From Kordiimonas sp. SCSIO 12603 (lineage in GTDB: Bacteria > Pseudomonadota > Alphaproteobacteria > Sphingomonadales > Kordiimonadaceae): a stretch of 64,000 nucleotides of DNA. Of this stretch, positions 19,791-27,951 are shown piece after piece; the stretch's first letter is position 1; every line of letters starts with the position of its first letter. The position numbers and the translations under genes were made by a program. Location of the stretch: positions 3,463,001 to 3,527,000 of the forward strand of contig NZ_CP073748.1 of assembly GCF_024398035.1 (NCBI RefSeq), in the 5' to 3' direction. Under the pieces are notes generated by a model. It had not been told where the DNA came from. It saw only the letters and a program-made list of their open reading frames with translations, and did not search any database.

Positions 19791-21542
19791 CTAGTGAACG
19801 CCGTGCATTCTTTTCCGCATGATTGGTGTTAGTACAAGGATAAATATACCAACCCCAACGCTGAGAAGACCAATATCGGTATAAACGCTGATTACAGCCC
19901 CAATATCCAACGTGCCTGAATCACCGCCGTGTTCACCGCTGCCTGTCAACGAGCTAATCCAACCTGCAACGTAATTACCAAGAGCTGTAAACAGGAACCA
20001 TGTACCCATCATCATACCAACGATACTTGGTACACTCAGTTTTGTAACCATTGATAACCCAACCGGACTCAAACAAAGCTCAGCAAGTGTTAGCGATAGA
20101 TAGATAAATACAAGCCATAGGAAACTCTTATCAGTGCCACTTTCCATGCCTAGGCCCCATGCAAATACGATATAACCAAGCCCGATAAGCAACATTGAAA
20201 TACCGAATTTACCAGGCGTTGATGGCTCAACAGATTTACGTGCTAATGCAACCCATAGCCATGCCATTACCGGTGCTAAAAGCACGATAAAGAGCGGGTT
20301 CAGAAGCTGTACTTGAGAGGCACGGAAACTAAAACCAATAACATCCAAATTAAACTGCTGGTCAGCAAGAAGTGTTAGCGAAGCAGCCTGCTGTTCAAAT
20401 AGAGCCCAAAATACTGACTGAATAGCAATCAAGAATGCTGCTACAAAGAGGCGATCTCGTGCTTCTGCCTCACATTTCATAAAGGCATAAGCAACGATGA
20501 TAGCTATCATCACAAAACCAGAAGCACCAAGTAGAGTACCTACAAAACTTTGATACTGAATAAGCAGCCAGCTAAGTACAACAAGACCAAGGCCAAATAC
20601 ATAAATTGCCCATTCTTTGTTCAAACCAATCGGCGAACGTTCCTTAAGCACCTCTGGGCGCGGTGGTTCAGCACGGCCATCAAGAAGTTTCTGTCCCCAT
20701 AGGAATACAAACAGGCCAAACAGCATACCAATACCTGCCAGACCAAAACCATAGTTCCAGCCATATACTTCACCAACATAGCCGACGAGCGCAGTAGAGA
20801 AAAGCGAACCTAGGTTAATACCCATGTAGAAGATAGAAAACCCACCATCACGTCGTGGATCGTTCGGGCCGTATAATGCACCAACGATTGTTGAAATATT
20901 TGCTTTCAGAAAGCCAACACCAGTAATGATAAGTGCTAAAGAAAAGAAGAAAATATTCAGATATTCATTGTGCTGAACGATACGAGTATCAAAGCTACCG
21001 TTTGCATACTCCTTCATTGTACCTTGCGCAGCATCGAGGCCAACGAGCTTCACGCCAGTTGTCTGGCCCTCAGTATTCTTGACTTTCTCAACTTTAAAAT
21101 TCGATCCATTAATAGCGACAACTTCAAATTCCGAGCTATTATCGCCTGCAATTGCTTGCTGATAGGAAACCTGATATTCCGCGCCATCAAATGCATAATA
21201 CCGCTCGGCACGTGGGCCGTGCAGCGCCATCAAACTATGGCCCGCCACCAGTAATATCGCGCCATATGTAACGGCCTTACGGCTACCCAGATAACGGTCA
21301 GCAAAATAGCCACCAAGGATCGGCATCATATAAACAAGGCCCGCATAAGCCCCGTAGATTAGGCTAGATTTCTCAGTGCTGAAAAGGTGATACTTCACTA
21401 GATAAAGAACAAGAATTGTCCGCATACCGTAGTATGAAAAACGTTCCCACATTTCTGTCAGGAAACAAATACTTAGCCCTATAGGATGTCCTAGCAGCTC
21501 TCGTTGCTGCGACCCTTCGGTCGAAACGTCAACTGTGCTCAC
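19791..21542 (-). CDS. POT/PTR family proton-dependent oligopeptide transporter
   Basis: 583 residues with about 12-14 membrane helices. The family signature EMWERFSYYGMR (residues about 30-41, the ExxERFxYYG motif) and GGYFADRYLGSRK near 77-89 identify a POT-type H+/di-tripeptide symporter. A long insertion between about 115 and 190, rich in polar residues, would form an extracytoplasmic or cytoplasmic loop; such inserts are seen in some Gram-negative POT proteins. Together with the S9 peptidases and amidohydrolases nearby it suggests peptide utilisation. It is preceded by a long gene-free region holding its promoter. Confidence 0.92.
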   Translation of the reverse strand: MSTVDVSTEGSQQRELLGHPIGLSICFLTEMWERFSYYGMRTILVLYLVKYHLFSTEKSSLIYGAYAGLVYMMPILGGYFADRYLGSRKAVTYGAILLVAGHSLMALHGPRAERYYAFDGAEYQVSYQQAIAGDNSSEFEVVAINGSNFKVEKVKNTEGQTTGVKLVGLDAAQGTMKEYANGSFDTRIVQHNEYLNIFFFSLALIITGVGFLKANISTIVGALYGPNDPRRDGGFSIFYMGINLGSLFSTALVGYVGEVYGWNYGFGLAGIGMLFGLFVFLWGQKLLDGRAEPPRPEVLKERSPIGLNKEWAIYVFGLGLVVLSWLLIQYQSFVGTLLGASGFVMIAIIVAYAFMKCEAEARDRLFVAAFLIAIQSVFWALFEQQAASLTLLADQQFNLDVIGFSFRASQVQLLNPLFIVLLAPVMAWLWVALARKSVEPSTPGKFGISMLLIGLGYIVFAWGLGMESGTDKSFLWLVFIYLSLTLAELCLSPVGLSMVTKLSVPSIVGMMMGTWFLFTALGNYVAGWISSLTGSGEHGGDSGTLDIGAVISVYTDIGLLSVGVGIFILVLTPIMRKRMHGVH

Positions 21543-21887
21543 AAACTTACCCCTTGATTATTAATCTGTATTTCTGCGTCTTTCTGCGCAGATAACTCCC
21601 ATGGCTCTTTGCCTTTAAAAAGAGCGCCCGCCACATTTAAGAACATAAAACTGTAAGATTCAGAAGGAAAAAACGATTAATTTTCAGAAAAAATGGCTCA
21701 AAGCCTTGAAAAAGCACTCGTTTACTCCACTGCCCTTCATTCTGATTTCACTCCAATAAGATTTACAACTGTTCAGAAAACCACATGAATCAGCCTACCT
21801 AATGCCTACATTTACTTTCTTTTCATTCGTGCCTTGACTCTATGTGACACTTGTCACATATTTGCGACAAATGAATGTGAGGTCATT
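21543..21887. other. Divergent intergenic region between POT transporter and BlaI-type regulator
   Basis: 345 bp without a gene. Its right end holds the -35-like TTGACT (21834-21839) and a -10-like CATATT (21857-21862) spaced by 17 bp, overlapped by a palindrome (separate entry). The remaining sequence is AT-rich, with no ORF or strong hairpin that I can support; the POT promoter must lie near its left end. Confidence 0.5.
21841..21860. promoter_or_regulatory. 20-bp palindromic operator overlapping the blaI-like promoter
   Basis: TATGTGACACTTGTCACATA has perfect 9-bp arms around CT. It lies between the -35-like TTGACT at 21834-21839 and the start codon at 21888, covering the probable -10. 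A bound protein would block transcription, so autorepression by the adjacent BlaI-type protein is the simplest reading. The core TGTGA-N6-TCACA also equals the CRP consensus, so a Crp-family regulator is a serious alternative. Confidence 0.6.
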
Positions 21888-22262
21888 ATGAAAATTTCCC
21901 CAAGTGAGCTTCCGCTCCTTAAAGCGCTTTGGAGTAAGGGCGAATTGAGTGCTCGTGAAATTCATGAGCAAGTTAGTGTTTCAAAGAGCTGGAGTTTTTC
22001 AACAACCCGCAAAACACTGGAACGTATGGTTGGCAAAGATATGGTCGCTATGAGGGAACTCCATGGTGTGCGGGTTTACACAGCACAAGTAGAAAAAGTA
22101 TCCACACTCGCCAGCATGACCCGTGATTTCATCAGCAGAGTACTGGAAGTAAAAGGCCCCCTACCTGGTTCCATGTTCACTGGCAGTGAAATCCTCGAAC
22201 CAGATGAAATCAAAGAACTTGAAAAACTTATGAAAGACTTTGACGAAAGCGAACAATCATAA
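21888..22262 (+). CDS. BlaI/MecI/CopY family transcriptional repressor
   Basis: 124 residues from the ATG at 21888, chosen for its GAGG ribosome-binding site (the frame is open from 21834). Winged HTH: LPLLKALWSKGELSAREIHE, then WSFSTTRKTLERMVGKDMVAM, as in BlaI/MecI, followed by a C-terminal dimerisation helix region. BlaI proteins repress resistance genes until cleaved after a signal from a BlaR1-type membrane protease. Here the next gene, overlapping at TAATG, encodes an M56 (BlaR1-like) protease, so the pair forms a sensor-repressor unit. A palindromic site covers its promoter. Confidence 0.88.
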   Translation: MKISPSELPLLKALWSKGELSAREIHEQVSVSKSWSFSTTRKTLERMVGKDMVAMRELHGVRVYTAQVEKVSTLASMTRDFISRVLEVKGPLPGSMFTGSEILEPDEIKELEKLMKDFDESEQS

Positions 22263-23596
22263 TGCCTGCTCTTCTGCTTCATATTGTATGGGCGGCAGCA
22301 TTACTTTTGATGCACCGGATTCTGCGCAAACATATTCAAAGCCTTCATGATGACCCCAATGTGGTTTTGGTTCTTATCGCGCTAACGTTTGCCCCGTATT
22401 TAGGGATTTTATTCCCGGAAACGATGCCCATGTTACCAACCAACATTTGGTTGCCAAACCTAGATTACATTGCAAGCACTACAAACTTCAATACGGTTGT
22501 AAGCCTGCCTACATCTGAAAATAATATGGTAGACGCCCTTCAACTTTTGCTTGCCGCAGGGTGCAGTATCAGCCTTCTACGATTTAGCATTAGTTACTTC
22601 AAGCTAGCGCGCATTGCCCACTTTGCAAAAACATCTGATACAGCAGAAGACATCCGCATTTCTGAAAAAAACATACCGCCATATGCTTTTGGCTGGCCAA
22701 CACGAGCCGTAATTTTTCCGAAGGATCTTTTAGAAACAACAACGAAAGAGCAACAAGCTCTTATTATCCGCCATGAACAAATGCATATCCGGAAAAAAGA
22801 TCCCGAGATCGCGACAGCCCTTGCATTATTATCAGCCCTCTTCTGGTTCAATCCATTCTTAAAGAAGTTGATCGTAGCATGGCATAACGCCTGTGAAATC
22901 AGAGCGGATAACTTCGCCCTGAAACGGGCCACGAAAAAAATGCGCAAAGCTTATGCAGAAGCACTGCTTTCAGCTTTGCGCAAGCCAGCAGGAATGGCAC
23001 TGCAATGCCCGCCTGCTTCCTTCTCAAATCACAACTTGTGGAGTAACAAAATGAGAATTGAGACTATTATGAAAGGGATAGGCCCATCTCGCAAGCCAAA
23101 ACGCGATAAAGCCATCCTTCTAGCTTTCCTCTTGGGAGTTCTAGGGGGGTCAGTAACACTGGCAAGTACAGCGCATGCTATTGGACAAATCAATCTTCCC
23201 TTCAGAAATGAACTGGCACCTATTGTAGATGGTTGCAAATCCCAAGCCTATGAAGCAATGCGTGAAGGCAGGGTTCATAAGGGAATTGATATGGCAGCCC
23301 CAATTGGCACGCCTATCTTTGCCCCAGCCAATTCCTACGTTGTGGCAGCAACAGATGTTTACCAAAACAATCCGAAATGGGGCAAAGTAGTAGTGCTTCA
23401 ATCAACCAGCGGCATCACAACACTTTTTGCGCACCTAGATAGCTATGCTGTATCTGTTGGCGACAGAATAGAAGAAGGTGATGTCGTTGCCTTCGTAGGC
23501 AATACCGGCCAATCAACAGGGCCACATGTCCATATTGAAACCTATAAGAACGAAAAACGGGAAGACCCCGGAAAAATATGGCCCAGCCTGAAATAA
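22262..23596 (+). CDS. BlaR1-like M56 membrane protease fused to an M23 (LytM) peptidase domain
   Basis: 444 residues. N-terminal membrane helices (about 1-60 and 90-115) lead into an M56 zinc site HEQMH (171-175) with E212 in CEIRADNFA, as in BlaR1/MecR1. A further helix lies near 283-300. After it, instead of the penicillin-binding sensor of BlaR1, comes an M23 peptidase with all ligands: HKGID (H339, D343), FAHLD (H391) and HVH (H422, H424). M23 enzymes bind or cut peptidoglycan peptides. Sensing of cell-wall fragments or damage, relayed to the BlaI-type repressor, is inference from this architecture. Comparable M23/M56 fusions exist in databases, but I know of no characterised one. Confidence 0.88.
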   Translation: MPALLLHIVWAAALLLMHRILRKHIQSLHDDPNVVLVLIALTFAPYLGILFPETMPMLPTNIWLPNLDYIASTTNFNTVVSLPTSENNMVDALQLLLAAGCSISLLRFSISYFKLARIAHFAKTSDTAEDIRISEKNIPPYAFGWPTRAVIFPKDLLETTTKEQQALIIRHEQMHIRKKDPEIATALALLSALFWFNPFLKKLIVAWHNACEIRADNFALKRATKKMRKAYAEALLSALRKPAGMALQCPPASFSNHNLWSNKMRIETIMKGIGPSRKPKRDKAILLAFLLGVLGGSVTLASTAHAIGQINLPFRNELAPIVDGCKSQAYEAMREGRVHKGIDMAAPIGTPIFAPANSYVVAATDVYQNNPKWGKVVVLQSTSGITTLFAHLDSYAVSVGDRIEEGDVVAFVGNTGQSTGPHVHIETYKNEKREDPGKIWPSLK

Positions 23597-23657: not shown

Positions 23658-23695
23658 TAGATGCCATCTCTCACCCTACTGGGAGGTGGCATTGT

Positions 23696-26650: not shown

Positions 26651-26733
26651 CCTTCTCACATTTTTTCTGTGACTTTTTCCCATTCTGATTTAGGTCATAA
26701 AGACAGGGGTTAATCGGAATGGGGAGGATATCC

Positions 26734-27951
26734 GTGGCTTTTTCTTGGAAAACAGGCGTTAAGGTAGCTATCGCTGGCGCAGTGCTTTATGGCGGCTATG
26801 TAGCTGTGAACTTCGGTTTGGGCTTTTATGAGCTTGCGACTTTTTACGATACGGAAAAGATCACAGAAAACTTCCGGACAAGTTCCGCCAAATTCCCTCA
26901 TTCTGTGATTAAAACCAGCACGCCATGGGAGTTCAAACGCGCTGAGCAGACTATCCCACAACAGTATGAATATGACGGGAAGACTAAGGATTTAGACGAA
27001 TTCCTCGAGCTCACAGGGACAACAGGTCTGCTTGTTGTAAAAGACGACACCATTTTGTTTGAGGAATATTATCAGGGCGAGAAAGATACTGACCGCCATA
27101 ACATGTTCTCAGTCACCAAATCTTTTGTTTCCGCACTTATTGGGATTGCGATCGAAGACGGTCTTATTGAAAGTATCGATGATCCAATCACCAAGTATGT
27201 ACCGAAACTCAAAGGTAGTGGTTATGATGGCGTGATCATCAGGGATATTCTAACGATGTCATCCGGTATTCGCTTTACAGAAGATTATGGTGATCTCTCC
27301 TCCGACGTAAACCGTATGTCTATGGCCATCGCAACCGGCGGGTCACTTGATGATTTTGCAACGAGCCTCATAAGTGAACGCGAACCCGGCACTTTCAATA
27401 ACTATGTTAGTGTAGACACCCATGTTCTCGGCATGATGCTTGTAAATGTCACTGGCAAAACCCTTACAGACTATCTTCAGGAGAAAATCTGGCAGCCAAT
27501 TGGTATGGAGCATGAAGGTATTTGGGCTATTGATGGTGAAGGCATGGAAGTGGCTATGGGCGGCATGTCTGTAAGCCTAAGGGATATGGCGCGTTTGGGG
27601 AGGCTCTATCTTCATGAAGGAAATTGGAACGGGGAACGCATTGTTCCAGCACAGTGGGTGAAAGACAGCGTAACTCCAAGCGCTCCTCACTTGATGGCTG
27701 GCTTTAACAATCCGGGATCAGATACACCTTACGGTTACGGTTTCCAGTGGTGGACACCGTCCAAACCACGAGGTGACTATATGGCCTCGGGTATTTACCA
27801 CCAGTTTATATATGTAGACCCAAGCACAAACATTATCATTGCAAAAACCAGTGCAAACAAAGGCTTCACCAACCCGGAAAACAAAATGCAGAAGGACGAA
27901 ACTATCTCTGCCTTCCAGCAAATTGCCAAGAGGCTGGCAGCCGACGAGTAA
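26734..27951 (+). CDS. Serine hydrolase, class C beta-lactamase family
   Basis: About 405 residues from the GTG at 26734, chosen because GGGGAGGA lies seven bases upstream; the in-frame ATG at 26719 has no such site. An N-terminal hydrophobic helix (about 7-30) may anchor it. Catalytic motifs of the class C / 6-aminohexanoate-dimer-hydrolase fold are visible: SVTK near residue 132 (S-x-x-K) and the YVS tyrosine near 228. Members include esterases, peptidases and beta-lactamases; a resistance role is not implied. A strong terminator follows. Confidence 0.85.
   Translation: MAFSWKTGVKVAIAGAVLYGGYVAVNFGLGFYELATFYDTEKITENFRTSSAKFPHSVIKTSTPWEFKRAEQTIPQQYEYDGKTKDLDEFLELTGTTGLLVVKDDTILFEEYYQGEKDTDRHNMFSVTKSFVSALIGIAIEDGLIESIDDPITKYVPKLKGSGYDGVIIRDILTMSSGIRFTEDYGDLSSDVNRMSMAIATGGSLDDFATSLISEREPGTFNNYVSVDTHVLGMMLVNVTGKTLTDYLQEKIWQPIGMEHEGIWAIDGEGMEVAMGGMSVSLRDMARLGRLYLHEGNWNGERIVPAQWVKDSVTPSAPHLMAGFNNPGSDTPYGYGFQWWTPSKPRGDYMASGIYHQFIYVDPSTNIIIAKTSANKGFTNPENKMQKDETISAFQQIAKRLAADE

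Follow-up and report, generated by a model that had tools for sequence, protein, structure and literature searches.

The window analysed here, a stretch of 64,000 nucleotides (G000:C1:3463001-3527000) from a complete Kordiimonas genome of 3.85 Mb (label G000), carries a coupled pair of genes: a blaI-type repressor gene (21888..22262; 124 amino acids, start ATG at 21888, stop TAA) and a gene whose 444-residue product joins an M56 membrane protease to an M23 peptidase (22262..23596). Both lie on the forward strand, as do the protein features, promoter hexamers and half-site described below, and they overlap by a single base, the final base of the TAA being the first of the ATG (22262). The coupled pair had been recognised in the preliminary description, and its coordinates stand with slight refinements. 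An inverted repeat at 23661..23692, recovered by a repeat search and not called by the terminator scan, is a possible terminator. A divergent gene for a POT peptide transporter (PF00854; 19791-21542) adjoins the pair, and it does so too in Kordiimonas laminariae, the closest relative found (fusion protein 91% identical; L003/L014). One segment of this transporter gene (~19961-20954) is 68% identical to K. laminariae, while its surroundings are 92–95% identical. A gene for a PF00144 beta-lactamase-family serine hydrolase lies 3 kb downstream of the pair (26719-27951) and is without the operator.

The repressor matches the Penicillinase_R winged-helix family over its whole length (PF03965, 2e-18; 67.2 bits against a cut-off of 22.6), can be aligned with MecI and has a trait of the BlaI family at the sequence level, namely a palindromic operator with an ACA-NN-TGT core at its own promoter, to which binding is predicted. 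Its M96-F97 (22173..22178) aligns with N101-F102, where S. aureus BlaI is cleaved (PMC9834060), and at this predicted cleavage position phenylalanine occupies P1' in 11 of 12 aligned rows. The promoter itself reads TTGACT-N17-CATATT (21834-21862), with the -35 hexamer at 21834..21839 and the -10 hexamer 17 nt away at 21857..21862; TTGAC likewise precedes the operator in L072, L073, L015 and others. The operator, TATGTGACA-CT-TGTCACATA (21841..21860), is a perfect 9-2-9 repeat that fills the 17-nt spacer, overlaps the -10 hexamer with its right arm and encloses a conserved core, TGYGACANNTGTCRCA (21843-21858). A perfect palindrome over the repressor's own promoter had been described before; the repeat is confirmed and sits between -35 and -10. 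A conserved second half-site, GCGACA (21864..21869), lies 20 bp 3' of the first GACA (21846) and had been overlooked.

Architecture of the M56-M23 fusion protein

The fusion protein consists of an M56 domain (PF05569, 6e-24; residues 33-259, with HEQMH at 171-175) and a LytM-type M23 domain (PF01551, 6e-27; residues 338-436, 23273..23569). TM1, TM2, an outer loop and TM3 can be placed at residues 3-110 (22268..22591) by hydropathy and alignment with BlaR1, and the M56 profile aligns with the cryo-EM structure of BlaR1 (8exs, residues 3-327) through all four transmembrane helices (E 1e-16). The M56 active-site residues H171-E172-x-x-H175, D180 and E212-x-x-x-D216 (22772..22909) are invariant, being identical in ten fusion proteins, and H171/E172/H175/D180/E212/D216 correspond to H201/E202/H205/D210/E242/D246 of BlaR1 (BlaR1 residues from PMC9834060). 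Equivalents of the BlaR1 ExxxD motif, D210, Y261 (Y231 being present in the window) and the S-F loop can all be found. In this loop, S253-F254 (23018..23023) is a positional match to S283-F284, the pair at which BlaR1 cleaves itself, with phenylalanine in 8 of 10 rows; in BlaR1 that self-cleavage occurs spontaneously (PMC9834060).

The M23 site is complete, with zinc ligands H339, D343 and H424 and catalytic histidines H391 and H422, and its catalytic residues are invariant across the fusion proteins except for a glutamine in place of H391 in L043/L077. The preliminary description had named these residues and HEQMH exactly, and had put the M23 domain on the far side of a membrane helix. TM4 (residues 284-302; 23111..23167) is flanked by a charge of +5 N-terminally and of 0 C-terminally, which would put its N side inside and M23 in the periplasm; hydropathy and charge agree with a predicted N-out, C-out topology. 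A structure predicted with AlphaFold from two sequences reached a pLDDT of 33 and was discarded. Just after TM4, A304-H305-A306 (23171..23179) reads as a signal-peptidase-like site, and the equivalent linker of BlaR1 is where signal peptidase cuts that protein (PMC9834060); we take the putative site as a lead only, since such motifs are common at the ends of alanine-rich helices.

In having a BlaI-type repressor, a four-TM M56 protease and an operator palindrome that covers the promoter, the pair resembles the BlaR1/MecR1-BlaI/MecI systems of Staphylococcus and Bacillus licheniformis. It differs from them in carrying M23 in place of the penicillin-binding sensor, in its Gram-negative host, in its operator core, GTGACANNTGTCAC, and in having no beta-lactamase or PBP2a target linked within the window. 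The fusion protein scores 43 bits against an NCBIfam BlaR1 cut-off of 400 and ends in M23 rather than a C-terminal penicillin-binding (SxxK) domain. It is therefore a variant of the BlaI/M56 kind and not BlaR1 proper, because the penicillin-binding sensor, the defining feature of the beta-lactam receptor, is missing. Its best NCBIfam match is MepM, and many M23 structures also match. It shares the complete HxxxD...H...HxH site of M23/LytM endopeptidases such as MepM, ShyA, LytM and lysostaphin, but unlike in those enzymes the domain is fused behind TM4 of M56 and not behind a signal peptide or other wall-binding region. Such proteins presumably go by the RefSeq name 'M23/M56 family metallopeptidase'.

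The earlier surmise that the architecture may be annotated elsewhere was right: part of an M23 review lists M23+M56 among the combinations forming <1% of M23 hits and states that M56 has not been shown to take part in cleaving peptidoglycan, whereas the operon, repressor and operator described here are absent from that part of its account (PMC9662197). The preliminary description knew of no functional study of an M56-M23 fusion, and a literature search, with most subscription journals outside its scope, likewise found none. As far as could be found, the dedicated operator, the half-site at 20 bp and the near self-only distribution are undescribed.

The fusion gene is also a mosaic with respect to K. 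laminariae L003: codons 1-120 (window 22262-22621) show 61–74% DNA identity and codons 121-444 show 91–99%, the variable part being TM1-TM3 with the outer loop. This mosaic likely arose by recombination with a divergent copy.

Conservation of the operon and its operator

Fusion loci were gathered from four genome sets, covering the order (301 genomes), the class (385), the phylum (399) and one gammaproteobacterial family (199), and 17 loci from Alpha- and Gammaproteobacteria were compared (the window, L014, L015, L016, L043, L072-L077, L124-L127, L129 and L130). Eight of these come from the one gammaproteobacterial family, so the independent lineages are fewer than the loci. The fusion is found in 8 of the 399 genomes of the phylum sample, the source genome included, with a ninth matching genome, G011, in the same genus; a plasmid search returned no relative spanning 80% of the fusion protein. 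The BlaI gene stands immediately 5' of the fusion gene in all 17 loci, overlapping it by 1–7 bases in each of the nine measured besides the window. BlaI identity to the window copy ranges from 34 to 97% among these loci and is ~25% to another BlaI of the source genome. In L015 the fusion gene is split over two frames, owing either to a true frameshift or to an error in the sequence.

The core TGYGACANNTGTCRCA is matched with at most one mismatch at 13 of the 17 promoters, with two mismatches in L072 and three in L015, while the promoters of L043 and L077 carry another site, GCTACAAGTGTAGT. With a motif derived from the window only, the matches of L014, L015, L016, L073 and L076 were equalled by none of 400 shuffles (L014, a close relative, counts little here); L074 and L075 each gave a fraction of 0.0025 and L072 one of 0.0075, and L043/L077 were not significant. 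In 12 of the 17 loci, another half-site that ends in GACA lies exactly 20 bp downstream of the first (the spacings of part of them counted by hand from the sequence context), and L016 and L074 have the second box at a different distance. With two mismatches allowed, the relaxed motif is expected 0.71 times per 64 kb and was observed once in the window, with no mismatch. Its presence in the window alone could be chance at that tolerance; it is not chance, because it is kept in distant genera.

A related core recurs in other systems. Operators of CopY/CopR (RNYKACANNYGTMRNY; PMC7253601) share the GACA-NN-TGT core with its two-base spacer, but the window BlaI is without the CXC metal motif and the operator flanks differ in a clade-specific manner. 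Likewise, three further BlaI/M56 pairs of the source genome have a related ACA-NN-YGT operator core with different flanks. Judging from these sequences, the flanks may serve as labels by which the BlaI/M56 pairs are kept apart. In two of the other pairs, ankyrin repeats follow the M56 domain (L120 4687-6213, L121 3803-5380), which is unusual if that segment lies outside the cytoplasm.

The M56-domain tree is compatible with one or with two changes of the M23 label. In L025 and L041, which belong to the same BlaI clade, the M56 protein bears, where M23 would be, a TonB_C-like C-terminal domain that scores below the Pfam cut-off; their operators are ATGTTACTGATGTAACAT and ATGTTACACGTGTAGCAT. Because these two loci swap M23 and L043/L077 have glutamine for H391, the sensing tip seems exchangeable and catalysis not always required, and the domain swap fits a replaceable sensor more readily than an effector.

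Genomic distribution of the operator and neighbouring genes

A scan of the source genome with the full palindrome, a check proposed earlier, found no second site at up to two mismatches and one site at three, which is the control level. The exact operator is confined to the operon's own promoter in both G000 and G011, and two-mismatch sites number 44 and 37 against 37 and 38 in the reversed control. Among ten genomes, exact operators occur at the own promoter only in six, nowhere in three and elsewhere in one. Of the eight genomes added to the Kordiimonas two, G018, G704, G1021 and G788 (with two matches in the last) have them at the own promoter only, G188, G910 and G481 have no exact match genome-wide, and in G1004 the sole exact operator lies away from the operon (C19:32139), the own promoter there having one mismatch. 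A wider regulon found no support when these ten genomes were scanned with both the full palindrome and the relaxed motif: Kordiimonas did not rise above control, and G1004 gave one exact site. The 16-base pattern would miss any degenerate or half sites to which BlaI may bind, and it is in terms of recognisable sites that the visible regulon in Kordiimonas is the operon itself.

The G1004 site (L119 4140) precedes a TonB-dependent receptor gene whose probable start is ~40 nt further downstream, and such a gene stands directly 3' of the fusion gene in five of the eight members of the gammaproteobacterial family (L112 9161-11440, L115 5616-7814, L124, L126 and L127). The link between these receptors and the operator is suggestive and goes no further, since the G1004 receptor shares 23–26% identity with the five fusion-linked ones, as is usual for any two such receptors; in some lineages the receptors may nevertheless form a genuine second output. 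In G788, a PF00144 beta-lactamase-family gene and an esterase gene follow the fusion gene in the same direction (L113 8498-12019). An all-against-all comparison of neighbours in ten loci found no gene beyond the pair common to all lineages; TonB-dependent receptors, esterases and PF00144 proteins are shared between some loci only. Membership of the POT transporter in the system was not supported by the lineages outside Kordiimonas, in which it does not adjoin the pair. The preliminary view that regulated genes beyond the pair are not obvious is hence strengthened for Kordiimonas; elsewhere, the TonB-dependent receptor is the only recurrent candidate.

Regulatory models and their bearing on cell-wall biology

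That the repressor and protease form an autoregulated core appears highly probable: bound as a dimer to the palindrome that lies between -35 and -10, BlaI would repress the operon, probably aided by the half-site two helix turns downstream. Around this core, we favour an autoinduced relay of the BlaR1 type that feeds back on a cell-wall hydrolase, with M23 as both its sensing tip and its product. Of the sensor-relay model in the preliminary description, comparison upholds the link of the repressor to the palindrome of its own promoter and a BlaR1-type protease whose M23 domain is predicted to be periplasmic; sensing or cutting of peptidoglycan peptides by M23 and a signal that reaches BlaI are putative steps. 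The M56 protease site would face the cytoplasm and the M23 domain would lie in the periplasm, where a change in what it meets in the cell wall would release the M56 site; M56 would then cut BlaI before F97, and derepression would yield more M56-M23. The output would thus be the hydrolase itself, either tethered or shed after TM4, to which some lineages may have added a TonB-dependent receptor. Because few other targets are apparent, the hydrolase is probably what the relay acts back upon; the chain as a whole, drawn from sequence comparison, is held with moderate confidence. More tentatively, the sensor might be an active endopeptidase, such that what M23 cuts would control the proteolysis of its own repressor and match the dose of the enzyme to the condition of the wall. 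In this reading the outer loop (residues 53-90) may occupy the M23 groove in the way that EL1 plugs the sensor of BlaR1.

The swapped tip of L025/L041 and the missing H391 of L043/L077 would also fit an M23 domain that is a pure sensor binding stem peptides, with catalysis unneeded and BlaI relaying to further genes, whether or not linked to the pair, for instance those for TonB-dependent receptors or beta-lactamase-family enzymes, much as BlaR1/BlaI relay to blaZ. The receptor genes behind the fusion in five gammaproteobacteria, the stray G1004 operator before another and the PF00144 and esterase genes of G788 point the same way, but neither of the two Kordiimonas genomes has a gene or operator of this kind outside the pair, and most lineages retain the complete M23 active site, so that we consider this reading rather unlikely. 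It is doubtful that M23 is an effector only and that BlaI is signalled otherwise, for example by a cytoplasmic peptidoglycan dipeptide that would weaken its hold on DNA and is perhaps imported by the divergent POT transporter: binding of such a dipeptide to BlaI/MecI makes the complex with DNA less stable in B. licheniformis (PMC3305447), and the PF00854 gene adjoins the pair in K. laminariae as well, but other lineages do not have the transporter next to the pair, and the conserved M56 and cleavage-site residues favour proteolysis. A signal-free feedback, in which M56 would cleave BlaI at a rate tracking its own amount and so set the level of membrane hydrolase, is in keeping with the near self-only operator, the overlapping genes and the spontaneous self-cleavage of BlaR1 (PMC9834060), but is highly improbable given a patchy distribution (8 of 399 phylum-sample genomes) that suggests a conditional role.

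The conservation of the operator makes reporter tests straightforward. BlaR1 is known chiefly as a beta-lactam receptor. A BlaR1-type protease joined to a peptidoglycan hydrolase, under a dedicated operator that is retained in both Alpha- and Gammaproteobacteria, suggests a wider job for the BlaI/M56 systems in cell-wall homeostasis or envelope uptake. It also suggests that wall sensing in some Gram-negative bacteria takes place across the membrane, unlike that by AmpR, which relies on recycling products.
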